Program-made: the position numbers and the translations under genes
In this document: piece after piece, positions 1,395-21,058 of the stretch
How the letters are laid out: every line of letters begins with the position of its first letter
Position numbering within the stretch: the first letter of the stretch is position 1
DNA from: Myxococcales bacterium
Lineage (GTDB): Bacteria; Myxococcota_A; UBA9042; JABWCM01
Length of the DNA stretch: 34,302 nucleotides
NCBI GenBank assembly: GCA_013360285.1
Contig: JABWCM010000027.1
Coordinates: 1 to 34,302 of the forward strand
Direction of reading: 5' to 3'
The notes under the pieces: model-generated
Seen by the model: the letters and a program-made list of their open reading frames with translations, nothing else
Told to the model about the DNA's origin: nothing
Databases searched by the model: none

Positions 1395-1411
1395 CAACCT
1401 ATCGCCACCGG

Positions 1412-2674: not shown

Positions 2675-2694
2675 CAAACGAAAAGGAAGAAAGG

Positions 2695-4356
2695 ATGCCA
2701 ACACTCAAAATCGACGGCCAGGAGATTCAGGTCGAAAAAGGCACCACGATCCTTCAGGCAGCACAACGCCTGGGGATCCGAATCCCTACTTTTTGTTACC
2801 ACCCGGGCCTCAGCATTGCCGCAAACTGCCGAATGTGTCTGGTCGAGGTTGCGAAGTCACCCAAACCTATGCCGGCGTGTCACGCCCAATGCGCCGACGG
2901 AATGGAAGTATTTACCAACACGCAGAAAGTGCAGGAAACACAGAAAGCAATTCTTGAATTTATCTTGCTGAATCATCCGGTTGACTGCCCGATTTGTGAC
3001 CAAGCCGGAGAGTGCGTCCTCCAGGACAACTATGCCGACTACAGTCTGTCCCCGTCGCGCCTGTTCACGAAAAAGGTCCACAAAGCCAAAGCGAAGCCAC
3101 TCGGCCCCAAAATTATTCTGGATGCAGAGCGCTGCATTTTGTGTACACGGTGTGTGCGATTCGGCGACGAAATAACAAAAACGGGAGAGCTTCGGGTAAT
3201 GAGCCGTGGCGAGCATAGCGAAATCACAACATTTCCGGGCAAAACGTTGGACAACCCGTATAGCCTGAATGTTGTTGATATTTGTCCAGTCGGTGCACTT
3301 ACCTCCATCGATTTTCGGTTCAAACGGCGGGTTTGGTTTATGTCAGCAACCCGCTCGGTCTGCACTGAATGCGCACGCGGCTGCAACATCCGAATCGATA
3401 GTTTTCAGAATAAAATTGAACGTTATGTTCCCAACTACAACCCTAAAGTGAACCAGTGGTGGATATGCGACTCGGGGCGGATGTCGCATACACGTTGGAC
3501 TGCAAACAGGGTGACGGAACCTCGCAACACGCGCACCGAGTCGTCCAAGACAGCCATTTCGACGCGCGATGTGGCCGACGAAATGGCCAAAGCACTGGTT
3601 ACGTCGGGCAAAGCAAGTGCTTTCGTACTCGACGCATCCATGCCCAACGAAGATGCATTTGTAGCACTTCGCCTCGCACGGGCCGTGGGATCCAGATTGT
3701 ATCTGGGCGGACGTGCACAAAATGGCCCCCAGGATGAATTGCTACGCCTTGCTGACAGAAATGCAAATCGGACAGGGATATCGGCAATTGCCGGACCGTC
3801 GCCTCTTCCAGGTCTTGCGGAGTTCCAGAAAGACGTTGCGTCCGGTGCGTTCAAAACCGTATTGTTTATTGGCGGCGAGCATGAGGGGCCGGACAAGTGG
3901 GCCAAATTGCTTGAGAAAGTCAGCGTAATCGGTGTGCTGGCAGACATTCGAAGCGACTTGGTCGACATTGCACACATCGTAATACCCGCAGCGGTCCCTC
4001 AGATGCGCGAGGGCACGGTGGTTAATTCCCACGGCCGTGTGCAGCGAATTCGGCAGGCGATTCGATTGGAACCGGCCGGTGTTGTATTCCCTTATTGGAG
4101 AATACTGAAAAGAATTGCAACAACGGCGGGCCTCGAAGCCACTTGGAACTCAGAACGAGCTATTTTTGGCGAAATTGTTGCCAGTATGCCGCAGTTTGCC
4201 GAAATGACTTACGACAAACTTGGTGATCTTGGTTTGCCGCTTGGTTCAAACGGGCTATCCGACGTGGATGTCGACGCAGCAACACGAAACATCGACCCAA
4301 GCGCACCTCAGTACCGAAAAACCAACATAAACAGCCGCATGCCCTGGCAACATTAG
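2695..4356 (+). CDS. nuoG: NADH-quinone oxidoreductase subunit G, short form
   Basis: Iron-sulfur subunit that passes electrons from NADH along the peripheral arm. Domains in order are: a plant-type [2Fe-2S] ferredoxin with C34, C45, C48 and C62; a His-Cys3 segment (LNHPVDCPICDQAGEC); a pair of [4Fe-4S] motifs starting at CILCTRC and ending at DICPVGA; and a molybdopterin-oxidoreductase-type Fe-S segment with C223, C226, C230 and C258 that resembles the N7 ligand set. At 553 residues it is shorter than usual family members (about 700-900), because the C-terminal molybdopterin-like region is reduced. An AGGAAGAAAGG ribosome binding site precedes the ATG. The partner NuoE and NuoF are not in the window. 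Confidence 0.93.
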   Translation: MPTLKIDGQEIQVEKGTTILQAAQRLGIRIPTFCYHPGLSIAANCRMCLVEVAKSPKPMPACHAQCADGMEVFTNTQKVQETQKAILEFILLNHPVDCPICDQAGECVLQDNYADYSLSPSRLFTKKVHKAKAKPLGPKIILDAERCILCTRCVRFGDEITKTGELRVMSRGEHSEITTFPGKTLDNPYSLNVVDICPVGALTSIDFRFKRRVWFMSATRSVCTECARGCNIRIDSFQNKIERYVPNYNPKVNQWWICDSGRMSHTRWTANRVTEPRNTRTESSKTAISTRDVADEMAKALVTSGKASAFVLDASMPNEDAFVALRLARAVGSRLYLGGRAQNGPQDELLRLADRNANRTGISAIAGPSPLPGLAEFQKDVASGAFKTVLFIGGEHEGPDKWAKLLEKVSVIGVLADIRSDLVDIAHIVIPAAVPQMREGTVVNSHGRVQRIRQAIRLEPAGVVFPYWRILKRIATTAGLEATWNSERAIFGEIVASMPQFAEMTYDKLGDLGLPLGSNGLSDVDVDAATRNIDPSAPQYRKTNINSRMPWQH

Positions 4357-4370
4357 GAGAACCGGTCGTC

Positions 4371-5408
4371 ATGCTGGAACTTATCTTACTATCTGTCGCA
4401 AAGGTGATGGGCATCGTAATGGTGTTTGTGATGGCCGTAGCGGCACTTCTAACTTGGATCGAGCGCAAACAGAGTGCATTGATACAAAACCGGGTTGGAC
4501 CCAACCGTGCTTCTGTCGCTGGACTTCGCCTTGGCGGAATTTTCCACTTGGCGGCCGACGCTGTAAAAATGCTGACAAAGGAAGATTTTGACCCAGAAAC
4601 GGACAATCCTTTGATGTTCCGGCTGGCACCGTTTCTGGCAGTGGTTCCGGTAATGCTCTTGTTTGCGGTGATTCCTTTTGGTCCGGGCGAACACTTTCTT
4701 ATCAGCAACGTTGGTGTTGGCGCATTGTTTATCCTGGCAGTCAGCAGCCTTGGCGTATACGGCTCGACAATCGGCGCTTGGGCATCCAACAACAATTTCG
4801 CGATGCTCGGCAGCATTCGTACGACCGCCCAGATGATTTCCTACGAAGTATCAATGGGGCTCAATTTGGTCGGAATCTTCATGATTTATGAATCCGTAAA
4901 CCTGCAAGACATCGTTATCGAGCAAGGAAGTTTGATTTGGGGATGGTTGCCGGCGTGGGGCATCGTCCTGCAACCGTTGGCGTTTATTCTGTTCATGACG
5001 GCGAGCATAGCAGAAACAAAACGTGCTCCGTTCGATCTTCCCGAAGGGGAAAGCGAAATTGTGGGGTATTTTGTTGAATTCTCGTCGATGCGGTTTGGAT
5101 TATTGGCGCTGAGTGAGTTTATAGGAATCGTGGCGGTTGGTGCCACGGCTGCTGTACTGTTTTTGGGTGGGTGGCAAATTCCGTGGGTTCAGGGGACCGG
5201 AGGGTGGCTTACAGTGGCACAAGTCGGAGCCATGATCTTGAAAACCCTTTTCGTGGTGTGGCTCCAGATGGCCATCCGATGGACACTGCCAAGATTTCGG
5301 TACGATCAACTGATGCGGCTCGGCTGGCAGTATTTGCTTCCATTGAGCTTGCTTAATATTTTTATCACCGGCGTCGTGCTTATGTTTGTCGAGCAGGGTC
5401 GAATATAG
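4371..5408 (+). CDS. nuoH: NADH-quinone oxidoreductase subunit H
   Basis: Inner-membrane subunit of complex I that forms the membrane end of the quinone channel. The 345 residues contain about eight hydrophobic helices. Family hallmarks are WIERKQSALIQNRVGPNRAS near residues 29-48, KEDFDPETDNPLMFRLAP, and the acidic loop ETKRAPFDLPEGESEIVGYF with conserved glutamates. An AGGAG ribosome binding site lies just after the nuoG stop. The following gap to nuoI is 233 bp, long for this operon. Confidence 0.96.
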   Translation: MLELILLSVAKVMGIVMVFVMAVAALLTWIERKQSALIQNRVGPNRASVAGLRLGGIFHLAADAVKMLTKEDFDPETDNPLMFRLAPFLAVVPVMLLFAVIPFGPGEHFLISNVGVGALFILAVSSLGVYGSTIGAWASNNNFAMLGSIRTTAQMISYEVSMGLNLVGIFMIYESVNLQDIVIEQGSLIWGWLPAWGIVLQPLAFILFMTASIAETKRAPFDLPEGESEIVGYFVEFSSMRFGLLALSEFIGIVAVGATAAVLFLGGWQIPWVQGTGGWLTVAQVGAMILKTLFVVWLQMAIRWTLPRFRYDQLMRLGWQYLLPLSLLNIFITGVVLMFVEQGRI

Positions 5409-5641
5409 AATTGAATAAAATACCCCGAAAACTGGACCGTGAGGGTTTGTGGAAAAACAGGCGGGACACGATGCCGGTGGATTTTGAGCGATTCGGGCAT
5501 TGCAGATTTCTTTCTATACTCATGATATGACTACATTTTTTCTTGCAAACTCGACTCGGATTCCATTACAAACGTTCTTATCCATATTAGAAAAAAACGA
5601 GCACGACACAAAATCGAAATCGAAGGTGAGGTAAATTGACC
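5409..5641 (+). other. Long nuoH-nuoI spacer
   Basis: The other nuo genes here are 14-109 bp apart, but this spacer is 233 bp and holds no supported open frame. It includes a TATACT hexamer at 5515-5520 that could be a -10 box. I see no good -35 at the right distance, so an internal promoter is only a possibility. The last bases give the GGTGAGG ribosome binding site of nuoI. Confidence 0.4.
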
Positions 5642-6163
5642 ATGGCGGCAACAGTTCGTCCGGTACAACGAAAAGAGTTTAAGTTTAGAGAAAGCAGTTA
5701 CCTTCCCGAAGTTTTGCGTGGCTTGGCGATTACAACCCGTCAATTTTGGCGAAATCTGGTTGGCCAAAGGGATATCGTTACACTTCAATATCCCGAAGTG
5801 AAAAAGCGTTATCCGAACCGATTTCGCGGCCGGCATCGGCTTATGTTGCGGGATGACGGTCAAGTGCGTTGTGTGGCATGTATGCTGTGCTCCACGGCAT
5901 GCCCAGCGAATTGTATTCATATTGTCGCCGCCGAACATACCAACACGTCGATTGAGAAATTTCCCCAAAAATTCGAAATTGATTTATTGGTTTGTATTTA
6001 CTGCGGATTTTGTGAAGAAGCGTGTCCTTGTGACGCTATTCGTATGGACAGCGGCCGCCATTCCTTGCCAACGTTTTCCCGCTCACCTCAAAACATAGGA
6101 AAAATTGATCTAATGGAAATCGGCTCCCTTTCCATTGCCAAACAGGGCGGCAAAAACGCGTAG
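5642..6163 (+). CDS. nuoI: NADH-quinone oxidoreductase subunit I
   Basis: Peripheral-arm ferredoxin-like subunit carrying two [4Fe-4S] clusters (N6a and N6b) that pass electrons towards NuoB and quinone. The two motifs are CVACMLCSTACPANC and CIYCGFCEEACPCDA, each with the expected CxxCxxCxxxCP spacing. The N-terminal amphipathic region (PEVLRGLAITTRQFWRNL) fits the family. I start at ATG 5642 because GGTGAGG at 5625-5631 is well spaced for it; the TTG at 5636 is too close. Length is 173 residues. It is the last nuo gene seen; nuoJ-N do not follow. Confidence 0.95.
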   Translation: MAATVRPVQRKEFKFRESSYLPEVLRGLAITTRQFWRNLVGQRDIVTLQYPEVKKRYPNRFRGRHRLMLRDDGQVRCVACMLCSTACPANCIHIVAAEHTNTSIEKFPQKFEIDLLVCIYCGFCEEACPCDAIRMDSGRHSLPTFSRSPQNIGKIDLMEIGSLSIAKQGGKNA

Positions 6164-7832: not shown

Positions 7833-9119
7833 TTAGAACTTTGTGCGAAGTTCAAGTTCGCCAAAGTGCATTACGTCATCGTCAAAATCTTCGGCTGGCA
7901 GAAAAACGTCGTAGGTGAGTCGTAATGTGAGTGCTTTCCCGGGTTTGAACAGCAATCCGGCGTCGACCTCGGTTCCCCAATACCCATCTGCACCACCGAC
8001 TTTCTCCGGTCGAAAAAATCCATGTCCGTCCAATAAAAAGACCACATTGGGATGAAGTTTCCAGGAGACATGGGCAGCGCCACCGGCAACATTGGTCCTT
8101 GGCCCGATCACGTCTGCGGTTCCCAACCACTTGTGCGCGGTCGGAAACAACTGATTCCACCCTTCGGCTTTGTCCGCCGTTTCGGGGTCATCTCCGCTTG
8201 CAAAAAAGCCGTGCAACGCCACTCGCAGCGCCTTATCGTCGAGAAACGAGAATCCGAATTCTGCGTCCCCCTGAAAGGCCAAAACGTCGACATTGTCTGC
8301 AACGCCTTCCAAACCTCTTTTTCCAAATTGCACCCCGGCTTCAACCCGATAGTCCACAACGTCCCCAATCGGACCCTTGGAACGCAACCCAACCGTAAGT
8401 TCCGTCGTGCCACCCCGAACAACAGGGTCCTCGTCTGTCTCCGGCGCAAGACGGAATAACGCATAGGCGTCGAGATCAAAGTCAGGACCTGCAAATTTTC
8501 CTAAACCGGCATAAATCCCCATGAAATAGAGATCGCCCGCACCAATTGATTCGTCCACCGGACCCTCGACAAACCCCTCTTTTAGAACGGACACAAAACC
8601 GTCCAGCCACGCCCCGTTGTCGTCTAAGTTCGCATGAAATCTCACGCCATCAAATGCTCTTCCGGTGTGATGCCAACCCACGGAACCGATAACCAACTCG
8701 TCTCCGTAAGACATTTCGAACCGCCCCACGTCAAACCGGTATCCTTGTCCGTTGACTACGATAACACCCTCATGCAGCCCCAACGTTGGATCAGTCAGTT
8801 CGTCACCACCAATATTCCATATACCGCTTGCTTGTGGAGCGACCCGTGCCATGACCGACAGATTCTCGCCTAAGGACACCGGCGCGGTGTTGAGTAAGAA
8901 TCTGCTCCTGAACGTAAACATGTCACTGCCATTCGACGCAGCGTCGAAACCTGGATTGAGCGTGTAGTTGTGTCTAAACTCGTACCGCGAAAACATATCA
9001 ACGCCCATTGTAATTGGCGGCACATCCGACGACGGGCTCTCGGCAGCAACCACGGATGTCGTTTTTGATAATATAAGAACCAAAATTACTAATTTTGAAA
9101 AAGTCAACGACCGTTTCAT
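7833..9119 (-). CDS. Outer-membrane beta-barrel porin, alginate-export family type
   Basis: Probable 428-residue outer-membrane channel. The N-terminus is a Sec signal peptide (MKRSLTFSKLVILVLILSK...VVAAES). The rest is alternating amphipathic strands, with a typical family ending (YWGTEVDAGLLFKPGKALTLRLTYDVFLP) and a C-terminal phenylalanine as expected for Bam-dependent insertion. The AAGGAG ribosome binding site is correctly spaced for ATG 9119 and abuts ATG 9128, so the shorter start is chosen. It is the last gene downstream of the nap operon, separated by 292 bp. Its substrate is unknown; anion or nitrate entry is a guess from context only. Confidence 0.75.
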   Translation of the reverse strand: MKRSLTFSKLVILVLILSKTTSVVAAESPSSDVPPITMGVDMFSRYEFRHNYTLNPGFDAASNGSDMFTFRSRFLLNTAPVSLGENLSVMARVAPQASGIWNIGGDELTDPTLGLHEGVIVVNGQGYRFDVGRFEMSYGDELVIGSVGWHHTGRAFDGVRFHANLDDNGAWLDGFVSVLKEGFVEGPVDESIGAGDLYFMGIYAGLGKFAGPDFDLDAYALFRLAPETDEDPVVRGGTTELTVGLRSKGPIGDVVDYRVEAGVQFGKRGLEGVADNVDVLAFQGDAEFGFSFLDDKALRVALHGFFASGDDPETADKAEGWNQLFPTAHKWLGTADVIGPRTNVAGGAAHVSWKLHPNVVFLLDGHGFFRPEKVGGADGYWGTEVDAGLLFKPGKALTLRLTYDVFLPAEDFDDDVMHFGELELRTKF

Positions 9120-9411
9120 CGCGCACATCTCCTTTCATATCTAATTCGCCAACCACCGCTGCCGGTATGATTGATATCCAGCAGCATCACCCATTCGTGA
9201 GGCGGGCAACTAAGCCACAGTTCTGTCATAACGAGATATCCACCACACATAACGAAGGGCGCTGTAAACGGTCGGCGTCCACGACGTCCAGCTTGACGTC
9301 AGTTCATTCCGACCCACTTCGTCAACATATGCCTGACTTTACGCCCACCGATGATCTTCTCGTTATGTCTCAGCACCTGAACATCACACAAACCAAGAAC
9401 ATCAATCACAG
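9120..9411. other. Spacer between the nap operon tail and the porin gene
   Basis: About 290 bases. No supported gene. GACGTC occurs twice, 12 bp apart start to start, near 9287-9305. I see no clear promoter for the porin, which may be read through from nap or have its own start. The porin ribosome binding site lies at the left end. Confidence 0.35.
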
Positions 9412-9726
9412 TTAATTCGTTGATTTTATTCTTATTATTCGATACCCATCGCCATACCTCATCACCGTGTCACACCACGAACACCCCTGGTAACCGTACC
9501 GGAGCTGAACGGCAACCACGTCATTGTGAACCAGTGCCTCGTGGGCTTCGCCAACGGTAATCGGCACCAGTTCACCATGATCACGGTGTCCACATTTGAC
9601 AGTGATTCGTATGTCCGTCCCGAAGTTCGCGACATCCGAAAAGAGTTGCCAGCAGGTGTCTTCGTCCAGGACATCACTCAACAGTTCTGGAATGCTCCCG
9701 TAATACTCTTCTAGTTGCTCAGGCAT
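9412..9726 (-). CDS. Small protein coupled to napF, function unknown
   Basis: A 104-residue cytoplasmic protein that I do not recognise. The ATG at 9726 follows the napF TGA by one base, so translation is probably coupled. The sequence is acidic at the N-terminus (PEQLEEYYGSIPELLSDVLDEDTCW). It contains KCGHRDHG and later GCSWCDTVMRYGDGYRIIRI; these Cys and His residues could make a metal site. It ends the tight nap gene block, so an accessory role in nitrate reductase or Fe-S assembly is plausible but unproven. A longer open frame reaching 9834 lies inside napF and is not preferred. Confidence 0.65.
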   Translation of the reverse strand: MPEQLEEYYGSIPELLSDVLDEDTCWQLFSDVANFGTDIRITVKCGHRDHGELVPITVGEAHEALVHNDVVAVQLRYGYQGCSWCDTVMRYGDGYRIIRIKSTN

Positions 9727-9727
9727 C

Positions 9728-10357
9728 TCATACTCCAAGCGGTGTGGGCAGGAATGGCATGATACGCACAGCATTTGTAGGAGCCGGGCAGACGTGCTGG
9801 CACACACCGCACCCCCAACACTTCTCGGCGTCAATCATTGGTTTTCCCATCTGCCGAAACATCGCACCCGGTACTGGACATTGCTCCGTACACGTTGAGC
9901 AAAACCCACCTTGCCACGCGACACATTCGTGGGTCACGATCTCAACGGCCCCAATCTTTGGTTGCGCAGTTAGTTGTAACGCTCCGGTTCGGCAAGCCGC
10001 GACGCACGGCCGATCCGGACAAACGCGGCACGGACCAATTCGGAAATCGACTACCGGGGTGTTTGCTACACTCCGATATCGGGTCCGCGGTGCGGCCCGC
10101 AGAACGCCGTATGGACATGCAGTAATACATTCGGAACAACCCGAGCATTTGCTCAAAAATGTAGCTTCGTCGCCGGCGCCTGGAGGTCGAAACATCGGAA
10201 TAAACGGGGGTCTTGATGTCAATACCTCCGTTGATGAACTCGATGAGTCCACGTTGCCCCGATCCGCCGCGTAATCCTCCCGTTTGCCCCAAATCCGACT
10301 CCACAATTCTCGTCGACTGAACCCACCGTTGCTCGTATTCGAGTCTTCCAGTGTCAT
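9728..10357 (-). CDS. napF: NapF-type ferredoxin
   Basis: A 209-residue protein with four [4Fe-4S]-type cysteine motifs: CSGCSECITACPYG, CRVCPDRPCVAACRTG, CVAWQGGFCSTCTEQCP and CWGCGVCQHVCP. NapF proteins are cytoplasmic and are thought to help cofactor or Fe-S loading of NapA before export. No signal peptide is seen; the N-terminus is hydrophilic with SRRELWSRIWG, typical of NapF. It lies directly after the napB-like gene, with an AAGGA ribosome binding site in the 8-bp gap. Confidence 0.88.
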   Translation of the reverse strand: MTLEDSNTSNGGFSRRELWSRIWGKREDYAADRGNVDSSSSSTEVLTSRPPFIPMFRPPGAGDEATFLSKCSGCSECITACPYGVLRAAPRTRYRSVANTPVVDFRIGPCRVCPDRPCVAACRTGALQLTAQPKIGAVEIVTHECVAWQGGFCSTCTEQCPVPGAMFRQMGKPMIDAEKCWGCGVCQHVCPAPTNAVRIMPFLPTPLGV

Positions 10358-10365
10358 AACGATCC

Positions 10366-11154
10366 TTATCTTAGCAATTCAGATCCAAAAGGAAGTTGTT
10401 CCATCGGTCGGTTTTCCAAAATCGCTGAGGTCGCGTGGCATTGAAGGCAGTTTTGGCGTAACGGATGAGTCGTTCGAATGCCGGGCGCACCTGATGGACC
10501 GTGGCAACTGTCACATTCCTGCCGCATCCACGTGGAATGGGGGACAACCGGAGGAGCCCCATCCCAGGCCCGCGGTGATTGATGGGCAGCCGCCAATCCA
10601 CTGAACTCATTCAGCGCGATCGGCTCGATGTCCGCCGGAAAACCATCCGGAAACGGCCCATTCGCCGGCACATGACACTGTACGCAGTTTGTTAATTTAG
10701 CATGGCTGACAGCAGGAGCCCGCAATGAGCCAACCACCAGGCCCTGATCGTGACAAGTCAGGCACGGTAAGTCCCCTCGGATGGGAATCGGGTGCGGCAC
10801 CATCGGTGGAGCACCATCGTACGCTCTTAAATTACTTCTCGCCAAAACATCGGTGTATGTTCGCTCTCCATCACGATTGCCGTCCTCTGAGGGGACTGCA
10901 GCGATTTTCCGTAAAGCTTCTGCTTGGGTCGTTGGAGCGGTGCGACTCTTTTCCCGCAGTTGTGCGTAGGATAACGCTGGTGCAACCAAAGCAGAATCGA
11001 CCTGCAACCGCGTCGGGTGCCCCTCCGCACCTTCGGTTGCCGATTCGCGAACACCGACAAAAAAACCAATAAACGATACCGCGATTACAGAAGCGGCCAG
11101 CACAACGACTGTCCGAGGATAGGTGGCGCCCCGCTCCACATCTTCTGTCCACAT
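10366..11154 (-). CDS. napB: Tandem tetraheme NapB-like cytochrome c
   Basis: NapB normally is a diheme periplasmic cytochrome that hands electrons to NapA. This 262-residue protein has four CxxCH motifs, at 131-135, 157-161, 214-218 and 236-240, arranged as two NapB-like units. Each unit has R-A-(Y/W)-D-G-A-P-P-(M/V)-V-P-H, then a first heme, an H-P or S-H segment and C-x-Q-C-H. So the protein looks like an internal duplication of the NapB fold. The N-terminus has one hydrophobic segment (about 16-34) acting as signal or membrane anchor. It starts 20 bp after the napA stop with a GAGGAGG ribosome binding site. The symbol reflects family membership, not proof of identical function. Confidence 0.85.
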   Translation of the reverse strand: MWTEDVERGATYPRTVVVLAASVIAVSFIGFFVGVRESATEGAEGHPTRLQVDSALVAPALSYAQLREKSRTAPTTQAEALRKIAAVPSEDGNRDGERTYTDVLARSNLRAYDGAPPMVPHPIPIRGDLPCLTCHDQGLVVGSLRAPAVSHAKLTNCVQCHVPANGPFPDGFPADIEPIALNEFSGLAAAHQSPRAWDGAPPVVPHSTWMRQECDSCHGPSGAPGIRTTHPLRQNCLQCHATSAILENRPMEQLPFGSELLR

Positions 11155-11173
11155 GAGAGCCTCCTCAATTCGG

Positions 11174-13570
11174 TCATACCGGCGCTTTGCGCAATCTTAC
11201 CGCACACTTTTTGTAATCGGGCTGCTTTGAGAACGGATCGTGAGCATCCAACGTGACGAGATTGACAAGGAGTCGCTCATCAAAAAATGGAACAAAGATA
11301 ACCCCTTTGGGTGGTGCTCCCCGTCCTTGAATCCACGCTCGCAGCGTGATCTGCCCTCGACGTGATTCCACGATCACCGAACTTCCGTTCCCGATCCCAA
11401 GCCGAGCCGCGTCCTCCGGGTGTACCTCGACATATGCCTGGGGCATCGCCCGATGCAACTGCGGCACCCGCATTGTCATTGTCCCGGTGTGCCAATGTTC
11501 GAGTACGCGCCCGGTGCACAACCACAGCGGATATTCATTATCCGGCACCTCCGGCGGGGGCTCGTATGGACGGAACCACACCAGTGCTTTGTCATCATTG
11601 GTAACCGAATGGTAGAACTGAATACGCCGCCCCTTTTCGACGAATGGGTCGTCAAATTCGGCAAACCGGAACCGGGTTTCTCTCCAGGATCCGTCTTGTT
11701 GCTGAACAACCGGCCACCGTAATCCGCGTGCCTTGACGTATTCGTCATAAGGAGCGAGATTCTTGTGCTTCATAGTTGTAAACAGCCGATATTCCTCAAA
11801 TAATCGTTTGTCCACATTCACGTCGTAATAGTGTTCCCATTGCCAAATGGGAACCTCATTTCCGTTTTCATCCACTGTGTGAAACAAAAATCGACCGTCT
11901 TTGTCCCGCATTCCTGGATGTCCCAGCTCCCACAGGCGCCGTGCCACCGCAATGGTTTGCCAACAGTCATCCCGGGCCTGTCCTGGAGGCATAACCATAC
12001 GAAACCACTGCTGTGTTCGTCGCTCCGAATTTCCGAACATCCCATTTTTTTCCACCCACAGCGCAGATGGCAAAATCAAGTCGGCTGCGGCGGTCGTGGC
12101 GGTCGGATACACATCCGACACGATCAAAAACTTGTCACCTGCGGACCTGTGGTTGAACAATTTCGGAAGATTGGGCAGTGTCTGGCCAGGATTGGTCACC
12201 TGTACCCAAATAGTGTGAATATCGCCGCCTTTTTCGGCTGGTGTCGAGAATTTTTCCCACATCAACACAGTGTGATACCCGGGCTTCGGATTGATTCTGC
12301 CATTTGGCACATTCCAAAACTTTTCCGTCTCTGCCCGATGAGCATCTTTCGCGATCAGGCGCCCACCGGGGAGCGTATGTGCCAACGTGCCGACTTCTCG
12401 AACGGTACCGCACGCGGATGGTTGGCCTGTCAAGCTGGTAGGTGCATCGCCCGGTTTGCCAAAGTGGCCGCTGAGCAAATGAATCCCGTGAACCAAGGAA
12501 TTGATCGCGGTTCCCCTGGTATGTTGATTCATACCCATGCACCATAGGCTGGTGATCTTTAGCGAAGGATTTTTGAATAAATCCGCCAGCATACGTATTT
12601 TATCGGCAGGAACACCAGACAGTTCTTCCACCCGTTGGGGCGTGTATTCTTCAATTTGTTTTTGATAGTCAGCGAAGCTGGTTTCTTTTCCCAGCAGTTC
12701 GGCGGGTTCGGAATCTGCCCTAAAATTACAGAAGTCCGTAACAAACTGTTTGTCGTAGCCACTTTCTTTGACCAGCAAATGAGCGATTCCATTAGCAATT
12801 GCCAAATCACCGTGTGGGCGCATTTCCAAGTAATCGTCGGCAAAATCCGTCGATCGTGTACGCCTTGTTCCAATGTCGATGATTCGAACGTTTTCGCCAC
12901 GAGAACGCCTGTCAATCACGCGTGAGAATAGTACAGGATGCATTTCGGCAGGATTGTTGCCCCAAAGGATGACAACGTCACATTTGTCCAAGTCGTCATA
13001 GCAGCCGGCAGGTTCGTCCACGCCGTAGGTCGAAAGAAATCCGGTGACCGCTGATGCCATGCAGAGACGTGCATTGGGGTCTACATGGTTGTTGCCCAAT
13101 CCACCTTTCATCAACTTGTTTGCTGCGTATCCCTCCGGAATCGTCCATTGTCCGCTTCCATACATCGCGAAGCCACTCGAGCCCTTTTGAACTCTCTCGG
13201 CGATGATTTGAATAGCTTCATCCCATGAAATGGGGTCAAACTTGTCTCCTCGCCTCAACAGGGGGGTTGTCAACCGGTCCTTGCCGTACAAAATCAATCC
13301 AACATGGTATCCTTTTACACACAACAGTCCTTTGTTGACTTCCGCAAGACGATCTCCAGCGATGGAAACCACTCGCCCCTCTTTTACTCCGACCTGAACG
13401 TGACACCCCGTACCACAAAACCGGCAGGGCGCTTTGTCCCACTTTACGCCGTCCGATGGTAAAGGCACCTCTCCGTGTGCGTCTCGAACTGACGTACCCG
13501 TGTGGGTCAACGTTGCGGCAGCAGTCGCCATCGCCGTCATTTTGAGAAAACTACGCCTATCGACTGACAT
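11174..13570 (-). CDS. napA: Periplasmic nitrate reductase catalytic subunit
   Basis: Reduces nitrate to nitrite in the periplasm using bis-MGD molybdenum and one [4Fe-4S] cluster. The 798 residues fit the family. A Tat signal (VDRRSFLKM) is followed by cluster ligands C49, C52, C56 and C84 within CRFCGTGC...LCVKGYH. The molybdenum ligand is Cys170 in DPNARLCMASAVTGF. MHPVLFSRV and MGMNQHTRGTAIN also match NapA. I start at ATG 13570 because GGAG six bases upstream suits it; TTG 13585 and ATG 13576 are poorly spaced. The start overlaps the napD stop by 14 bp. Distinction from related formate dehydrogenases rests on the napD/B/F neighbours. Confidence 0.95.
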   Translation of the reverse strand: MSVDRRSFLKMTAMATAAATLTHTGTSVRDAHGEVPLPSDGVKWDKAPCRFCGTGCHVQVGVKEGRVVSIAGDRLAEVNKGLLCVKGYHVGLILYGKDRLTTPLLRRGDKFDPISWDEAIQIIAERVQKGSSGFAMYGSGQWTIPEGYAANKLMKGGLGNNHVDPNARLCMASAVTGFLSTYGVDEPAGCYDDLDKCDVVILWGNNPAEMHPVLFSRVIDRRSRGENVRIIDIGTRRTRSTDFADDYLEMRPHGDLAIANGIAHLLVKESGYDKQFVTDFCNFRADSEPAELLGKETSFADYQKQIEEYTPQRVEELSGVPADKIRMLADLFKNPSLKITSLWCMGMNQHTRGTAINSLVHGIHLLSGHFGKPGDAPTSLTGQPSACGTVREVGTLAHTLPGGRLIAKDAHRAETEKFWNVPNGRINPKPGYHTVLMWEKFSTPAEKGGDIHTIWVQVTNPGQTLPNLPKLFNHRSAGDKFLIVSDVYPTATTAAADLILPSALWVEKNGMFGNSERRTQQWFRMVMPPGQARDDCWQTIAVARRLWELGHPGMRDKDGRFLFHTVDENGNEVPIWQWEHYYDVNVDKRLFEEYRLFTTMKHKNLAPYDEYVKARGLRWPVVQQQDGSWRETRFRFAEFDDPFVEKGRRIQFYHSVTNDDKALVWFRPYEPPPEVPDNEYPLWLCTGRVLEHWHTGTMTMRVPQLHRAMPQAYVEVHPEDAARLGIGNGSSVIVESRRGQITLRAWIQGRGAPPKGVIFVPFFDERLLVNLVTLDAHDPFSKQPDYKKCAVRLRKAPV

Positions 13571-13994
13571 GGTCATCTCCGTCAAAAAGTCCGGACTTCG
13601 ATGTGCGTCCGGCGTTGTCCACTTTCGTTAAATTACCTACCGTCGACGTCAACATCTCGTTCAAATCAATGCCAACAACATGTTCATAGCGCGAAGGACG
13701 TCCACGACTTCCACGTGCAGCGGCGCAGGCTGCCGCAAACGACTTTCGGTCAAAGGTTTCGACATCGGAAAAGTCGACAAAAACAAGGGAAGCGGCAACA
13801 ACACCACGCAGGTTCGTCAACCACACCCCAATCTCAGCGTCTTGCTCCAACGTGACCGATTCAACGACAATTGCCAAACTTTCGCCGACAAATGGGCCGA
13901 TTTCGACAAATGGATGTCGATTAAGCGCAAGTATTGCCCGTTTTTGTTCCTGTTTGTCTGGCGAAAGTGTTAGCTTCCAGGATGTTATCGGCAT
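13557..13994 (-). CDS. napD: NapD-type chaperone with C-terminal extension
   Basis: NapD binds the Tat signal of NapA in the cytoplasm and holds back export until the cofactor is loaded. The first part (MPITSWKLTLSP...GESLAIVVES...LTNLRGVVAASLVFVDF) fits the ferredoxin-like NapD fold. At 145 residues it is longer than usual: about 50 extra residues after DFSDVETFDRKSF are Arg/Ser-rich and have no family counterpart I know. It is the first gene of the nap operon and its end overlaps the napA start by 14 bp, so the chaperone and its client are translationally coupled. I choose ATG 13994 with an upstream GGTGG. Confidence 0.8.
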   Translation of the reverse strand: MPITSWKLTLSPDKQEQKRAILALNRHPFVEIGPFVGESLAIVVESVTLEQDAEIGVWLTNLRGVVAASLVFVDFSDVETFDRKSFAAACAAARGSRGRPSRYEHVVGIDLNEMLTSTVGNLTKVDNAGRTSKSGLFDGDDHVSR

Positions 13995-14132
13995 GTCACC
14001 ACCATTGCCCCCACCGTTCGTCTGAACAATGACACGCCAAAAGATCAATTTCAATACCTTATTATCTATTTACTTTTGGACAATAAAATCCTATTTATCG
14101 TTTGTCAGTCACTTCCAAAGGAGGAGTGAATC
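13995..14132. promoter_or_regulatory. Divergent promoter region of nap and the cytochrome module
   Basis: 138 bp separate napD (-) from the tetraheme cytochrome gene (+), so both operons start here. The centre is AT-rich. For the minus direction, GATAAT (reverse strand of 14061-14066) is a good -10 candidate, with no convincing -35. The palindrome at 14077-14092 lies just upstream of it, covering the -35 zone. No clear FNR box (TTGAT-N4-ATCAA) is visible. Confidence 0.55.
14077..14092. promoter_or_regulatory. Putative Rrf2-regulator operator between nap and cytochrome operons
   Basis: TGGACAATAAAATCCT fits GGAY-N6-RTCC with an AT-only centre. Read on the minus strand, its AGGAT-N5-TGTCC skeleton is the same as that of the palindrome over the start site of the Rrf2-family gene (17861-17876). 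It would overlap the -35 zone of the nap promoter. This is an inference from shared motif and position. No characterised Rrf2 operator is used as support. Confidence 0.4.
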
Positions 14133-14927
14133 GTGAGCAGAACAAAACTTCAGAAGAATAAACGTATTTGGGGGCAACAACCGATCTATTTCGCTCAGGT
14201 ACGACCGGCAGCGATTCATTTTGGAACTTTTTTTTCAATGATTGCCAATTATAAGGCGATTCTTGTCAAGAACTCTCACTTTAGGCCGCTAAAAACAATA
14301 CATTTGCTGAATTTCTTTGTTATCGCAGTTGCGATTCTCGATAGCGCATGCGGAGCGCCGGATGACACGATTGTAAGGAATGTCGCAGTGGCCTCCCCTG
14401 GCACCACAGAACTGTACCCGGAGACCATTTTTCTTCCTCCCGGAATCGGTACCTACGCGACTGGAAAAATTCTGGCCGACGGAACGGCGGAAACCATCCC
14501 ATGCATGACATGTCACGCCACCATCCCTACCGCCAAGACGCAGACGAATCCAATGGATCCAAAACAGTTTCATCAGGACATCAGTCTCGTTCATGGCAAT
14601 CTTGAGTGCCTGTCGTGCCATGACCGCGAAAACCGCAACGCCTTACGCCTCGCTTCCGGATCGCTCCTGGAATTTCGTGAAACGGTCCAACTGTGCGCGC
14701 AATGCCATGGGCTGCAGTATCGCGACTATACGCACGGCGCACACGGAGGAATGAATGGATACTGGGATCGAAGCACAGGAGAACGAACAAAAAACGGGTG
14801 TATTGTCTGTCATAGTCCGCACAATCCCAAAATTCAGCCAGTCGTTCCGGTGCTGGTGCCAAACGACCGCTTCTTGGATCACCCGATGGGCGAAACCACA
14901 ACGGATTCAACCTACAATGGGCATTAG
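14133..14927 (+). CDS. Membrane-anchored tetraheme cytochrome c
   Basis: A 264-residue periplasmic cytochrome with four CxxCH motifs at 124-128, 159-163, 188-192 and 223-227, plus extra histidines (HGAHGG, SCHD, CHSPHNP) able to ligate hemes. One hydrophobic segment (about 57-73) is signal or anchor. An LDSAC sequence at its end could be a poor lipobox. The GTG start has a strong AAAGGAGG ribosome binding site; this leaves an unusually long N-terminal lead before the hydrophobic segment, so ATG 14239 is an alternative. It heads the plus-strand operon with the ferredoxin and NrfD/DsrP genes and takes the place DsrJ has in DsrJOP, although DsrJ is a triheme protein. A likely job is passing quinol electrons on to NapB. 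Confidence 0.8.
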   Translation: MSRTKLQKNKRIWGQQPIYFAQVRPAAIHFGTFFSMIANYKAILVKNSHFRPLKTIHLLNFFVIAVAILDSACGAPDDTIVRNVAVASPGTTELYPETIFLPPGIGTYATGKILADGTAETIPCMTCHATIPTAKTQTNPMDPKQFHQDISLVHGNLECLSCHDRENRNALRLASGSLLEFRETVQLCAQCHGLQYRDYTHGAHGGMNGYWDRSTGERTKNGCIVCHSPHNPKIQPVVPVLVPNDRFLDHPMGETTTDSTYNGH

Positions 14928-15004
14928 TGGTTAGTTAACAGCTTAGATAGGCAAAGTGTCCGTCAAACCAAGGGCACATCCAACGGCAATCTAGGAGTCG
15001 ACCG

Positions 15005-15925
15005 ATGGAAGCAGAAAACAAACCAACCGGAATTTCGCGGCGAACGGTCGTGAAAGGTGCAGCGGCAACACTGGGTGCAGCGGCCTTTGCGCGGGCCATG
15101 GCTCCCATAATGAACTGGTCAGAAACAACGAGTTTAGACGAATTTGTTCAAAAACACTATCGAGAACTTAATTCGCAAGAAATGAACGATGTTTTACGAC
15201 GACTAGAGAGAGAAACCAAGGAAAACTACGGTGCTGATGTCACGATCAACGATATAAAGCCGATGCAGGGGGTCGTGTTTGGTTATGCACTCAATCTGTC
15301 GATCTGCATTGGATGTCGAAAATGTGCGGAGGCCTGTCATAAAGAAAACAACCATGATCGCCCGTCTCACAACGCGTACATTCGAGTGCTGGAGCTGGAC
15401 CAAGGAAGTATGAACTTGGAAAACGCCAACACGACGTATACCCATCCCGTGCCGGCGCCGGGGAAATACTACATGCCGGTTCAATGCCAACAGTGTGAAA
15501 ACCCGCCGTGTGTCAACGTGTGTCCGGTGGAGGCGACCTGGCAGGAGGCCGACGGGATTACGGTAGTCGATTACAACTGGTGCATCGGTTGCCGTTATTG
15601 CGAAGCTGCATGCCCCTACCATGCACGACGCTTTAATTGGAGAAAGCCGGAAATTTCCGCGACCGAGATCAACCCCAACCAGGCTTACTTATCTAATCGA
15701 ATTCGTCCTCAAGGCGTCGTAGAAAAATGCACTTTCTGTCTCCACAGAACCCGAGTAGGACGACTTCCAGCATGCCTTGAAGCCTGTCCGACCGGCGCAC
15801 GAGTCTTCGGAAATCTGCTGGATCCCAACTCGGAAATACGATGGGTGCTCGAAAACAAACGGGTTTTTGTGCTGAAAGAGGAGCTTGGCACAAAACCCAG
15901 GTTTTTCTACTTTTTTGACGTTTAG
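15005..15925 (+). CDS. Tat-exported ferredoxin-like subunit, DsrO/NrfC type
   Basis: A 306-residue periplasmic electron-transfer subunit. The Tat signal is ISRRTVVKG followed by an Ala-rich stretch. Four [4Fe-4S] motifs are visible: C101/104/107/111 (CIGCRKCAEAC), C161/164/169/173 (CQQCENPPCVNVCP), C193/196/199/203 (CIGCRYCEAACP) and C242/245/257/261 (CTFCLHR...CLEACPTGA). This is the pattern of the DsrO, HybA and NrfC group. A TAGGAG ribosome binding site precedes the ATG. Set between a tetraheme cytochrome and an NrfD/DsrP protein, it probably relays electrons between them on the outer face of the inner membrane. Confidence 0.88.
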   Translation: MEAENKPTGISRRTVVKGAAATLGAAAFARAMAPIMNWSETTSLDEFVQKHYRELNSQEMNDVLRRLERETKENYGADVTINDIKPMQGVVFGYALNLSICIGCRKCAEACHKENNHDRPSHNAYIRVLELDQGSMNLENANTTYTHPVPAPGKYYMPVQCQQCENPPCVNVCPVEATWQEADGITVVDYNWCIGCRYCEAACPYHARRFNWRKPEISATEINPNQAYLSNRIRPQGVVEKCTFCLHRTRVGRLPACLEACPTGARVFGNLLDPNSEIRWVLENKRVFVLKEELGTKPRFFYFFDV

Positions 15926-15991
15926 AGACGAAAAATCCGGGTCCGTCAACCTTGAGGTGACGGTCCACGATTTCGCCAGGAGGAAGGTGCT

Positions 15992-17263
15992 GTGGAAACA
16001 GAGAGCCAACCGGTTGTACATTCGGAACACCGAATCAACTACCCCAAATTCTTGTGGCGGCTGATCGTTCAAGCCACCGAAGGACGTCCGCTTTATTATG
16101 CGTGGATGACATTCTTAACCGCATTGGCGCTTGTTGGAGCCAACGCGTGGGCTCAACAAATAGAATCGGGAATGATCACAACAAATATGACCGATCAGGT
16201 GTCGTGGGGCCTCTATATTGCAAACTTTACTTTCTTGGTGGGGCTGGCCGCCGGCGCCGTCATGATGGTGATTCCGGCATACGTTTACCGAGACCGAGAT
16301 ATGCATGACGTCGTGATTGTAGGCGAACTTTTGGCCATTGCAGCAATCACGATGTGTTTGATGTTTGTAGTAGCCGACCTCGGCAGACCGGACCGATTCT
16401 GGCATATGATTCCCGGACTTGGCAGGTTCCATTGGCCGATGTCGATGCTCACGTGGGACGTTATCGTACTCAATGGCTACCTTCTCCTGAATCTGCATAT
16501 TTGCGGTTATCTCTTGTACACCCGATTTCTGAACCGTAGACCCAATCCCGCGTGGTACGTACCGTTTGTTTTCTTGTCGATAGTGTGGGCCATTTCTATC
16601 CACACCGTTACTGCATTTCTTTACCAGGGATTAGGTGGACGTCCGTTCTGGAACACCGCATTGTTGGCGCCAAGGTTCATCGTCTCCGCCTTTGTGACCG
16701 GACCTGCTTTTATCATTTTAACCCTACAGATCCTGCGGCACACACTGGGGCTTCAAGTAACGGACAAACCTATCGCTACCTTGATGGGTGTCCTTCGGAT
16801 CACGGTTTTGTTGAACTTATTTATGCTCGCGTCAGAGTTATTTACGCAGTTCTATACCGGTGGCACGCATGTTACTGCTGCAGAGTACTTGTTTTTTGGC
16901 ACCCACGGAAAAAACGAACTTGTTCCGTGGATTTGGAGTTCGATCACCATGAACGTGATCGCGGCGATGTTGTTGCTTCATCCCGGCGCCGGAACGAAGC
17001 GCTGGCTGCTCAACACAGCATGTGTGCTGGTATTTTTTGGAGTTTGGATCGAAAAGGGTATGGGACTCATCGTTCCTGGTTTTGTGCCAAGTACATTGCA
17101 CGAACTGGTCGAGTACGCTCCGAGCATGAATGAATGGAAAATAACGGTTGGCGTGTGGGCGGCCGGGTTGTTGGTTTACACAATCGCATTAAAAGTTGCG
17201 TTGCCGGTACTCACGGGAAAAATTTCGCTGTCCGGCACATCAAACACCGCAGCCAAACCGTAA
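15992..17263 (+). CDS. NrfD/DsrP-family quinol-interacting membrane protein
   Basis: A 423-residue polytopic inner-membrane protein with about ten hydrophobic helices. Family features include WGLYIANFTFLVGLAAGAVM, VADLGRPDRFWHM and, later, FLYQGLGGRPFWNTALLAPRFIVSAFVTGPA. This matches the DsrP/HybB/NrfD branch, which oxidises or reduces menaquinol and carries no heme. The GTG start has an AGGAGGA ribosome binding site. With the two upstream genes it forms a complete quinol-to-cytochrome module. Because the neighbouring nap operon has no napC, napG or napH, this is the most likely electron entry for nitrate reduction. The direction of electron flow is inferred. Confidence 0.88.
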   Translation: METESQPVVHSEHRINYPKFLWRLIVQATEGRPLYYAWMTFLTALALVGANAWAQQIESGMITTNMTDQVSWGLYIANFTFLVGLAAGAVMMVIPAYVYRDRDMHDVVIVGELLAIAAITMCLMFVVADLGRPDRFWHMIPGLGRFHWPMSMLTWDVIVLNGYLLLNLHICGYLLYTRFLNRRPNPAWYVPFVFLSIVWAISIHTVTAFLYQGLGGRPFWNTALLAPRFIVSAFVTGPAFIILTLQILRHTLGLQVTDKPIATLMGVLRITVLLNLFMLASELFTQFYTGGTHVTAAEYLFFGTHGKNELVPWIWSSITMNVIAAMLLLHPGAGTKRWLLNTACVLVFFGVWIEKGMGLIVPGFVPSTLHELVEYAPSMNEWKITVGVWAAGLLVYTIALKVALPVLTGKISLSGTSNTAAKP

Positions 17264-18862: not shown

Positions 18863-19024
18863 AGGTGGCTGGTGTTTTTTAGGGGAATTTTTCGCCAGCC
18901 GAATCTCAGCCGGATCGTCCGGAAAAATCCTGAGTTATATCGGGAATATGGCGCAGGGATTTTTACGGGTGAGACGGCCAAAGGCGGCCAGGACAAAAAT
19001 TTCATCAAAAAACACCAGCCACCT
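18863..19024. repeat. Full palindromic element A (MITE-like, 162 bp)
   Basis: Perfect 18-bp terminal inverted repeats, AGGTGGCTGGTGTTTTTT at 18863-18880 and its complement at 19007-19024, with weaker complementarity continuing inward (GGGGAATTTTTCGCC against GATGAAATTTTTGTCC). The 12-bp palindrome CCACCTAGGTGG spans the right end (19019-19030). No transposase is encoded. Half copies occur at 1-63, 17979-18039 and 20716-20805. The structure fits a miniature inverted-repeat element or a BIME-like repeat. No clean target-site duplication is visible. Confidence 0.75.
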
Positions 19025-19116
19025 AGGTGGCTCCTCGGAGCGAGGAAGTTTTGTCTCGTGGCCGCCATTACATCAAAATACGCCCAAATCGGTTACCTCC
19101 CAAATAGGAGAAATCA

Positions 19117-20676
19117 GTGGAAACCCTGCAAAGTTACGTGAATAGTCAATGGCGGCATGGAGATGGCGAGTGGGAAGATGTATTAAACCCTTCCACCGAA
19201 GAGGTTCTTGCGCGGACGTCGACTCGTGGAATCGATATGGACGCCGTACTCCATCACGCGCGCTCCGTTGGTGGGCACACGATTCGTAACATGACATTTG
19301 CTGAGCGCGGCGAAATGCTCAAAGCGGTCGCACAATTGATCCACCAGAATCGCGAAGAATTGATTCACTTAGCGATGATTAACGCGGGAAATACCCGTTC
19401 CGACGCAAAATTTGACATTGACGGCGCGTCCGGAACCCTTGCGTACTACAGCTCACTTGGAAAAAAGATTGGTAATATTCGATATCTAGTCGACGGGGAA
19501 GACGAACAACTCGGCCGCGACGCAAGATTTTTCGGTCGTCACATACTCACTCCGCTTCGTGGTGCGGTAATTGCCGTCAACGCCTACAATTTTCCCGCGT
19601 GGGGATTTGCCGAAAAAGCGGCAGCGGCGTGGTTGGCCGGAATGCCCGTTGTCGTCAAACCGGCGGTAAGCACGGCCCTCGTCGCAGCAAAACTCATCCG
19701 GCTGGTCGTCGAGGCGAAAATCGTTCCTGACGGTGCGCTTTCGTTTATCGCTGGCCCACCGGGAACATTGGTGGATCACATCAAAACACAGGACGTGTTG
19801 GCATTTACGGGTTCATTTCGCACCGGCTCCATGTTACGCAATTCGGCCAGCATAACGGAACACAACGTTCGGGTAAATATGGAAGCCGACAGCATCAACG
19901 CGGCCGTACTCGACCCACAGACCGACCTCGATAGCGAAACCTACACCGTGTTTATCAATGACGTTTTTCGCGACATGACACAAAAGACAGGCCAAAAATG
20001 CACCGCTATCCGAAGGGTGTTTGTACCCGACTCGCTTGTTGAAGTCGTAGTAGAAGATTTGGTTGCGCGGCTGAAAACAGTAGTAGTAGGAAATCCGCTT
20101 GCCGACGGTGTCACCATGGGTCCGCTGGTTTCTCAGGATCAAAGAGATCGTGTCCTACGGGGCGTTGCCGTGCTACAGCGCCACGCTCGCACGGCGTTTG
20201 GTAACTTAACAAGCAGAGACAGGATCGGTTCTCCTCCTGGACGAGGTTATTTTGTCGACCCTATCTTACTGGTCGCGACGACACCGATTCAAACTTCGGA
20301 AATCCATCACCTAGAGGTGTTCGGGCCTGTAGCAACGGTGATTCCGTATTCCGGCAACGCAGAACACGTGGCAAATGATGTCGCACAATCTGCCGGTGGA
20401 CTCGTGGTGTCTGTATACTCCGACGACCGGCGATTCATAGAAGAGTTTGTGCTGAATGCCGCACCATATCACGGAAGAATTTACATCGGAAACTCAAAAG
20501 TCGCTGATGTGAGCCTCGGTCCCGGAGCGGTTCCACCACAGTTGATACACGGCGGACCGGGACGCGCCGGCGGCGGCGAAGAACTGGGTGGCGTGCGAGG
20601 ACTGCACCATTTTATGCAACGGACCGCAATCCAAGGCTATCGACCGTTACTTGAGAAATGTTTCAGCGGCGAATGA
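19117..20676 (+). CDS. PaaZ/BoxD-type aldehyde dehydrogenase
   Basis: A 519-residue NAD(P)-dependent semialdehyde dehydrogenase of the PaaZ/BoxD group, which oxidises ring-opened CoA semialdehydes in aerobic phenylacetate or benzoate breakdown. The first residues (METLQSYVNSQW) are typical. Catalytic Glu256 (VNMEADS) and Cys295 (TGQKCTAIRR) are in place, and AVNAYNFPAWG marks the substrate and cofactor region. Unlike full-length PaaZ (about 680 residues) there is no C-terminal MaoC-like hydratase domain, so it resembles BoxD. The GTG start follows TAGGAG by six bases. No other paa or box gene is in the window. The gene is flanked by inverted copies of element A. Confidence 0.85.
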   Translation: METLQSYVNSQWRHGDGEWEDVLNPSTEEVLARTSTRGIDMDAVLHHARSVGGHTIRNMTFAERGEMLKAVAQLIHQNREELIHLAMINAGNTRSDAKFDIDGASGTLAYYSSLGKKIGNIRYLVDGEDEQLGRDARFFGRHILTPLRGAVIAVNAYNFPAWGFAEKAAAAWLAGMPVVVKPAVSTALVAAKLIRLVVEAKIVPDGALSFIAGPPGTLVDHIKTQDVLAFTGSFRTGSMLRNSASITEHNVRVNMEADSINAAVLDPQTDLDSETYTVFINDVFRDMTQKTGQKCTAIRRVFVPDSLVEVVVEDLVARLKTVVVGNPLADGVTMGPLVSQDQRDRVLRGVAVLQRHARTAFGNLTSRDRIGSPPGRGYFVDPILLVATTPIQTSEIHHLEVFGPVATVIPYSGNAEHVANDVAQSAGGLVVSVYSDDRRFIEEFVLNAAPYHGRIYIGNSKVADVSLGPGAVPPQLIHGGPGRAGGGEELGGVRGLHHFMQRTAIQGYRPLLEKCFSGE

Positions 20677-20715
20677 CACGGTTAGCCCCAATGTCTTTCG
20701 GGACCATGACCGCGG

Positions 20716-20805
20716 CCACCTAGGTGCGTGGTGTTTTTTGATGAAATTTTTGTCCTGGCCGCCTTTGGCCGCCTCGCCCGTAAAAATCCCTGCGCCATAT
20801 TCCCG
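20716..20805 (-). repeat. Inverted right-arm copy of element A
   Basis: Ninety bases that match the reverse complement of 18941-19030 with about four mismatches, including the CCACCTAGGTG end. The copy stops exactly where the left arm would begin, at CCCG before the 21-bp array. Together with the full element upstream, it brackets the aldehyde dehydrogenase gene as facing inverted repeats. Confidence 0.85.
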
Positions 20806-20827: not shown

Positions 20828-21058
20828 CTTCTCGATAGAAGGTCGGATCTTCTCGATAGAACTGGCGACCTTCTCGCGAGAAGTGGCGACCTTCTCGGGA
20901 GAAGACGTGATCTTCTCGATAGAAGTGGCGACCTTCTCAGGAGAAGATCGGATCTTCTCCCGAGAAGGCGTGATCTTCTCCCGAGAAGGCGTGATCTTCT
21001 CCCGAGAAGGCGTGATCTTCTCCCGAGAAGTGAGGAACTTCTCCGCCGAGCAGGCGCC
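20828..21058. repeat. Array of eleven 21-bp palindromic units
   Basis: Units start at 20828 and recur at exactly 21 bp through 21038; the last is degenerate. Each unit is a 14-bp palindrome, CTTCTC-N2-GAGAAG (or CTTCT-N4-AGAAG), plus a 7-bp spacer drawn from a few types (TGGCGAC, GCGTGAT, GTCGGAT and relatives). Because 21 is divisible by three, frames stay open on both strands and give heptapeptide repeats (LLPRRRD or TPSREKI), but no start, ribosome binding site or family supports a gene. Twenty-one bp is two helical turns, so all palindromes face the same side of the DNA. Confidence 0.9.

Follow-up and report, generated by a model that had tools for sequence, protein, structure and literature searches.

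A probable NrfD-type menaquinol dehydrogenase module encoded beside the periplasmic nitrate reductase of Myxococcota and other phyla

Periplasmic nitrate reductases (Nap) draw on the quinol pool, and the four nap operon types distinguished in a review of May 2026 (napEDABC, napDAGHB, napAGHBFLD and napCMADGH) all include NapC and/or NapGH (PMC13223375). Other feeders of Nap are on record, namely Qcr in Campylobacter (PMC6195509) and, as a proposal, a Rieske/cytochrome b pair in Caldithrix (PMC5317091). The locus described here, which judging by its genes is a Nap system but neither of the NapC nor of the NapGH type, lies on contig JABWCM010000027.1 (34,302 nucleotides, analysed at its full length and hereafter called the window) of a Myxococcota metagenome-assembled genome (MAG; GCA_013360285.1, 7.15 Mb in 430 contigs, 93% complete). 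Its minus strand carries napD-A-B-F with a conserved gene for a protein of 104 amino acids (aa), and divergently, on the opposite strand, stands a three-gene module encoding a tetraheme cytochrome, a DsrO-like ferredoxin and a DsrP/NrfD-like membrane protein, which very probably acts as a dedicated menaquinol dehydrogenase for Nap in place of NapC and NapGH. None of NapC, NapG and NapH is encoded in the window. A first-pass annotation made from the sequence had already placed the nap genes and the module, remarked on the lack of NapC and NapGH and given 138 bp between the divergent units, all of which agrees with the features found (Tat, twin-arginine translocation):

9412..9726, minus strand: conserved 104-aa protein, last in the nap unit; syntenic orthologues, no Pfam family
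9728..10357, minus strand: NapF-type four-cluster ferredoxin, cytoplasmic; no signal or membrane segment, conserved in the cluster
10366..11154, minus strand: NapB with N-terminal membrane anchor, internally duplicated, four CXXCH; PF03892 31.7 bits
11174..13585, minus strand: NapA, Tat-exported molybdopterin periplasmic nitrate reductase; NF010055 908.7 bits, NapA structures top the PDB list
13557..13994, minus strand: NapD chaperone; PF03927 matches in syntenic orthologues
13995..14132, no strand: divergent intergenic region, 138 bp, between the NapD start (13994) and the cytochrome start (14133)
14133..14927, plus strand: tetraheme cytochrome c with N-terminal membrane segment; four CXXCH
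15005..15925, plus strand: Tat-exported four [4Fe-4S] ferredoxin of the DsrO/PsrB/NrfC type; DsrO NF045797 186 bits
15992..17263, plus strand: predicted NrfD/DsrP-type integral membrane quinol-interacting protein; PF03916 131 bits, NF045798 431 bits
17397..17828, minus strand: Rrf2-family regulator, possibly of the cluster; PF02082 105 bits, Rrf2-type genes near the cluster in several other loci

With the NapC- and NapGH-dependent systems the locus shares NapA, NapB, NapD, NapF and, presumably, the reduction of nitrate in the periplasm from the quinol pool, but it differs from them in the three-gene module, in a NapB with four haems and in the extra 104-aa gene. Its logic is that of E. coli NrfBCD, in which the quinol oxidase NrfD, the four-cluster ferredoxin NrfC and a multiheme cytochrome serve a periplasmic reductase, whereas here the cytochrome has four haems, the terminal enzyme is NapA instead of NrfA, and the NrfC and NrfD equivalog models are missed by far (120.7 of 377.6 and 25.6 of 347.6 bits needed). 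With DsrMKJOP it has in common a DsrO-like ferredoxin, although under the cut-off of the model, and a DsrP-type membrane subunit that exceeds its cut-off; unlike that system, it pairs with NapA, the genome yielded no dsrA, the cluster holds no DsrJ-type triheme cytochrome, and neither DsrM nor DsrK occurs in the window, to which the search for these two was confined. The label "DsrJOP-like" used in the first-pass annotation therefore holds for O and P but not for J, since DsrJ is triheme and no DsrJ model matched the four-haem cytochrome.

Two earlier descriptions come from other lineages. In Thermosulfurimonas and Dissulfuribacter an 11-gene cluster has an NrfD locus near napMADGH, for which a role with nitrite was suggested (PMC5276818); there too nap genes adjoin NrfD, 4Fe-4S and cytochrome genes, but NapGH and NapM are present, NapB is missing and a Hao-like multiheme cytochrome belongs to the NrfD locus. 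Two of the loci collected here (L178, L179) resemble that cluster, having a napA-type gene (41% identity) and NapG/NapH-like genes divergent from a cytochrome, DsrO, NrfD and octahaem cytochrome series. In 2023 a multiheme-4Fe4S-nrfD type cluster was reported downstream of nap in two Planctomycetota MAGs, OFTM8 and OFTM33, from an Oslofjord tunnel biofilm, and was read as having a general role in respiratory electron transfer, with no Nap quinol dehydrogenase proposed (PMC10732223); both MAGs carry the same cluster as the window (L097, L110). A cultured planctomycete has been found to consume nitrate and to induce napAB in response to it (PMC10945688). The cluster is widespread and has gone largely unremarked, although the subscription literature, which lay outside our search, may hold an earlier description; within the literature searched, no biochemistry on a Nap-linked module was found.

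The association between Nap and the module was assessed by a census starting from NapA in 379 Myxococcota genomes, among which the window's genome is the sole member of its order (a comparison at order level is thus empty). Sixty genomes carry a close NapA (65-74% identity), and in 54 of them an orthologous NrfD lies within ~4 kb of it, divergently in 27 and co-directionally in the other 27, where NrfD is the upstream gene and the gaps measure 27-400 bp. As both gene orders are equally frequent, the NapA-NrfD link has evidently survived rearrangement. Among the six carriers without linkage, the orthologous NrfD is on a different contig in four, and the remaining two are MAGs (73% and 77% complete) without an NrfD match. 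A third, interleaved arrangement is found in two genomes (L184 6428-13788, L185 3864-11455), where the genes for a NapA of 45-51% identity and for a NapB-like cytochrome with 17 haems separate DsrO from NrfD, apparently within a single operon (cytochrome-DsrO-NapA-17-haem NapB-like-NrfD). Such an order is difficult to account for if the products do not work together, and by its gene content it is a second nap design, whose NapB-like electron carrier is very large. The linkage in two orientations, together with the interleaved operons, rules out that nap and the module are chance neighbours.

A second sample, obtained by scanning the genomes of 84,980 species, shows the same conserved synteny of napDABF with the three-gene set, which the first-pass annotation had proposed to look for, in four phyla beyond Myxococcota. 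The best 80 NrfD loci come from Myxococcota, Planctomycetota, Verrucomicrobiota, Acidobacteriota and Sumerlaeota, and 73 of these 80 have a close NapA with the module; in the other seven (L115, L119, L124, L148, L152, L164, L169) the contig breaks off inside the module or at most 450 bp upstream of it. Having been ranked by NrfD similarity, this set carries a bias, and the census starting from NapA is the fair test.

The usual quinol dehydrogenases are missing from many genomes that carry this nap. The window's genome itself has two matches to the NapC/NirT family, both outside the window: an NrfH whose gene immediately precedes that of a pentahaem NrfA (L001), and a CymA-like protein adjoining an OmcA/MtrC-like multihaem cytochrome (L002). 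NapH is absent from it (25.8 bits at best, where 213 are needed), so that a look beyond the window found no NapH but did turn up the NapC/NirT family. Across the 379 genomes, at E<=1e-5, no NapC/NirT-family protein was detected in 29 of the 60 NapA carriers; 24 of the 29 are at least 90% complete (46 carriers are that complete in all), and genomes in one or two contigs are among them (G008, G151, G356), G008 and G151 being single-contig genomes. NapH exceeds its cut-off in only three carriers and not in the other 57, and in one of the three, G313, it stands beside a second NapA, 49% identical. No NapH over the cut-off was found in 17 further genomes, mostly of named isolates, and Haloferula rosea lacks any match to the NapC family. 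A napC or napGH elsewhere in the genome that accompanies the close NapA across relatives, which the first-pass annotation had named as fatal to its proposal, was therefore not encountered.

These data also bear on the possibility, which we regard as unlikely, that NrfH (with NrfA) or a CymA-like tetraheme protein is the true quinol dehydrogenase of Nap, as CymA is in Shewanella, while the module does something else. Both proteins occur in the window's genome, and NapC-family matches are commoner in NapA carriers (31 of 60) than in the remaining genomes (92 of 319). Against this, the 29 carriers without any such protein nevertheless retain both Nap and the module, and a review considers mutual substitution of NapC and NrfH unlikely (PMC12285233). 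In 28 of the 40 NapC-family loci inspected in carriers NrfA is adjacent (NrfHA), most of the others being CymA-like and placed beside very large multihaem cytochromes or at contig ends; since the matches sit mostly in nrfHA operons, the enrichment is best read as nitrate and nitrite respiration occurring together. NrfH may possibly feed Nap where it is present, but it cannot explain the carriers that lack it.

Less likely again is that a bc1-type complex or alternative complex III supplies NapB with electrons via cytochrome c, with the module serving another acceptor. Precedents are Qcr in Campylobacter jejuni and the Caldithrix proposal, both cited above, and the window's genome holds a second NrfD-family gene (contig C203, 24% identity), which from its length appears to be ActC-like. 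Such a route leaves unexplained the near-perfect linkage of the module with NapA and the interleaved operons.

As regards exclusivity, 70 NrfD matches of at least 56% identity were found in the 379 genomes and 54 of them are linked to a close NapA, so the module is not as common without nap as with it; equal frequency would have told against the first-pass proposal. Of the remaining matches, seven adjoin large multiheme cytochromes (two of the seven also have a napAGH-type cluster next to them), one is an orphan and the contig of another breaks off inside the module, while the rest are contig-split partners and fragments. In a tree of 74 NrfD sequences 52 of the 53 nap-linked rows fall into one clade of 59 (Shimodaira-Hasegawa-like approximate likelihood ratio test, SH-aLRT, 100), whose other members are five rows linked to multihaem cytochromes, all placed among the co-directional nap rows, an orphan and an undetermined row. 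No nap gene and no large multihaem cytochrome lies within 18 kb of one module of the NrfD clade (L181, 65% identity). Multihaem cytochromes with 7 to 33 haems adjoin other cytochrome-DsrO-NrfD modules, orthologous or related (e.g. L175-L180, L182, L186, L188, L192, L193), as would be expected of an exchangeable quinol:cytochrome module, and the simplest reading is that one clade of such modules is dedicated to Nap and occasionally redeployed. The least probable alternative is that the module serves to reduce nitrite, or some other acceptor in the periplasm, and shares with Nap no more than its regulation, as suggested for the Thermosulfurimonas NrfD locus (PMC5276818). Related Myxococcota modules do adjoin cytochromes that are octaheme or larger, in two cases (L178, L179) next to napAGH-type clusters, but there is no multiheme terminal reductase in the window's cluster or its orthologues, where NapA is the only reductase, and many carriers have NrfHA elsewhere.

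Several points weigh against a dedicated Nap dehydrogenase and should be kept in mind. The evidence consists of genomes, and a physical interaction of the partners is putative; about half of the carriers do have NrfH or a CymA-like protein, and absence in draft genomes relies on hidden Markov model searches with a first-look filter. The five in-clade copies with multiheme cytochromes and the orphan mean that the module is not exclusive to Nap, and the best 80 loci, chosen by their NrfD match, are not an unbiased sample. In favour of a dedicated role, NapA distances track those of NrfD (Mantel r=0.50) as closely as those of its bona fide partner NapB (0.52; 0 of 2000 permutations reach either), although this correlation is partly species history.

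Cofactor motifs are present in the cytochrome and in the ferredoxin of the module. The cytochrome has four CXXCH motifs, kept in 93 of 94 orthologues, and four further invariant histidines, which would fit bis-His ligation of all haems; in several relatives its N-terminus is lipoprotein-like. Its predicted model is of low confidence (predicted local distance difference test, pLDDT, 68), and a PDB search with its profile gave generic multihaem matches only. It does not have the features of a NapC/NirT cytochrome: the window's protein has no match to PF03264 at E<=0.001 (13 of 30 relatives match weakly), and a divergent NapC is ruled out by the haem spacing of 35/29/35 and by a profile comparison, in which no more than 36 columns and two haem motifs were aligned. 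The ferredoxin has an RR (Tat) signal and four cysteine clusters, scores 186.1 bits against the DsrO model (curated cut-off 200) and is closest in the PDB to PsrB (2vpw). The NrfD/DsrP protein has about nine hydrophobic segments and exceeds the DsrP cut-off of 350 bits, and all 14 relatives tested match that model too.

Taken in this way, menaquinol would be oxidised at the NrfD-like protein, and electrons would travel by way of the ferredoxin in the periplasm, with its four [4Fe-4S] clusters, to the tetraheme cytochrome anchored in the membrane, from there to the duplicated four-haem NapB and on to the [4Fe-4S] cluster and the Mo site of NapA, where nitrate would be reduced to nitrite; in the window's genome NrfHA could then convert nitrite to ammonium. 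This path, proposed as the most likely one, has the same logic as is established for E. coli NrfBCD and for PsrBC (PMC12285233). That the module feeds NapB and NapA as an alternative architecture was the inference of the first-pass annotation, which comparative genomics supports at the level of genes, the function itself being still an inference. Ion translocation has been proposed for the NrfD family (PMC8076601), and if the NrfD-like subunit moves ions, Nap would here be energy-conserving, unlike nitrate reduction driven by NapC.

The assignment of the nap unit is clear for its catalytic subunit, since NapA combines a predicted Tat signal and [4Fe-4S] site with the Mo-ligand motif NARLC. It exceeds the cut-off of the NCBIfam NapA model PRK13532 (NF010055; cut-off 904 bits), though not that of TIGR01706 (869.7 of 930.6 bits), and its closest PDB entries are the NapA of Cupriavidus (736.8 bits) and of E. 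coli (735 bits). NapB, above the Pfam cut-off of 25.1 bits, has the diheme unit of this electron-transfer cytochrome twice, as two repeats of the form RA-DGAPP-VPH...CXXCH...CXXCH; this internal duplication, overlooked in the first-pass annotation, accounts for four CXXCH motifs instead of two, and hence for four predicted haems. The four motifs are present in 84 of 84 complete orthologues, across phyla, and no description of a tandem-duplicated four-haem NapB was met in the papers found. NapD itself has no Pfam match, while 5 of 12 aligned orthologues match PF03927, down to 6e-8. The NapF-type ferredoxin, without any hydrophobic stretch, stays under the cut-offs of all models it resembles (TIGR00402 napF 63 bits, NapG/MauM 84-88 bits). 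The 104-aa gene, which the first-pass annotation did not list in the nap unit, has its ATG immediately after the NapF stop and orthologues at the same position in 61 of 100 loci; the family has an invariant Y, W-x-D-T and R, and the predicted model (pLDDT 87) has an alpha/beta fold for which a PDB search found nothing at E<0.05 (best E 0.056).

A good Shine-Dalgarno sequence precedes the cytochrome start at 14133, while promoter-like matches in the 138-bp gap are no better than in shuffled sequence. An alginate-export-type outer membrane porin, possibly an anion porin, adjoins nap (7833-9128), similar porins being found near the cluster in a minority of relatives, and Complex I genes (30 kDa, 49 kDa, NuoG-like, NuoH, NuoI-like) lie upstream of the nap region (855-6163). 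A 21-bp tandem repeat array (CTTCTC-CGAGAAG, near-palindromic units, ~9.6 copies) occupies 20828-21030. Near-identical peptide strings (EYGAGIFTGE-AKGGQDKNFIKKH) are encoded in opposite orientation at ~18870-19080 and 20650-20790, so that a dispersed inverted repeat seems to flank an aldehyde dehydrogenase gene.

In conclusion, Nap stands beside its own three-gene feeder in Myxococcota and in at least four other phyla, and across much of microbial life nitrate respiration probably has a wiring other than that of the models. More tentatively, a third main class of Nap wiring may be common in several phyla, Myxococcota, Planctomycetota and Verrucomicrobiota among them, with a four-haem NapB that takes its electrons from a quinol dehydrogenase of the NrfD type, which possibly translocates ions. 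Nap could then conserve energy, and the 104-aa protein would be a new factor in the maturation or assembly of Nap. For a wide range of bacteria, including cultured ones such as Haloferula rosea and relatives of Myxococcus, Archangium and Rhodopirellula, the cluster offers a concrete, testable answer, and it predicts marker genes for nitrate respiration in genomes without napC or napGH, which would otherwise look incomplete. It also raises the question of whether Nap is coupled to energy conservation through an NrfD-type subunit.

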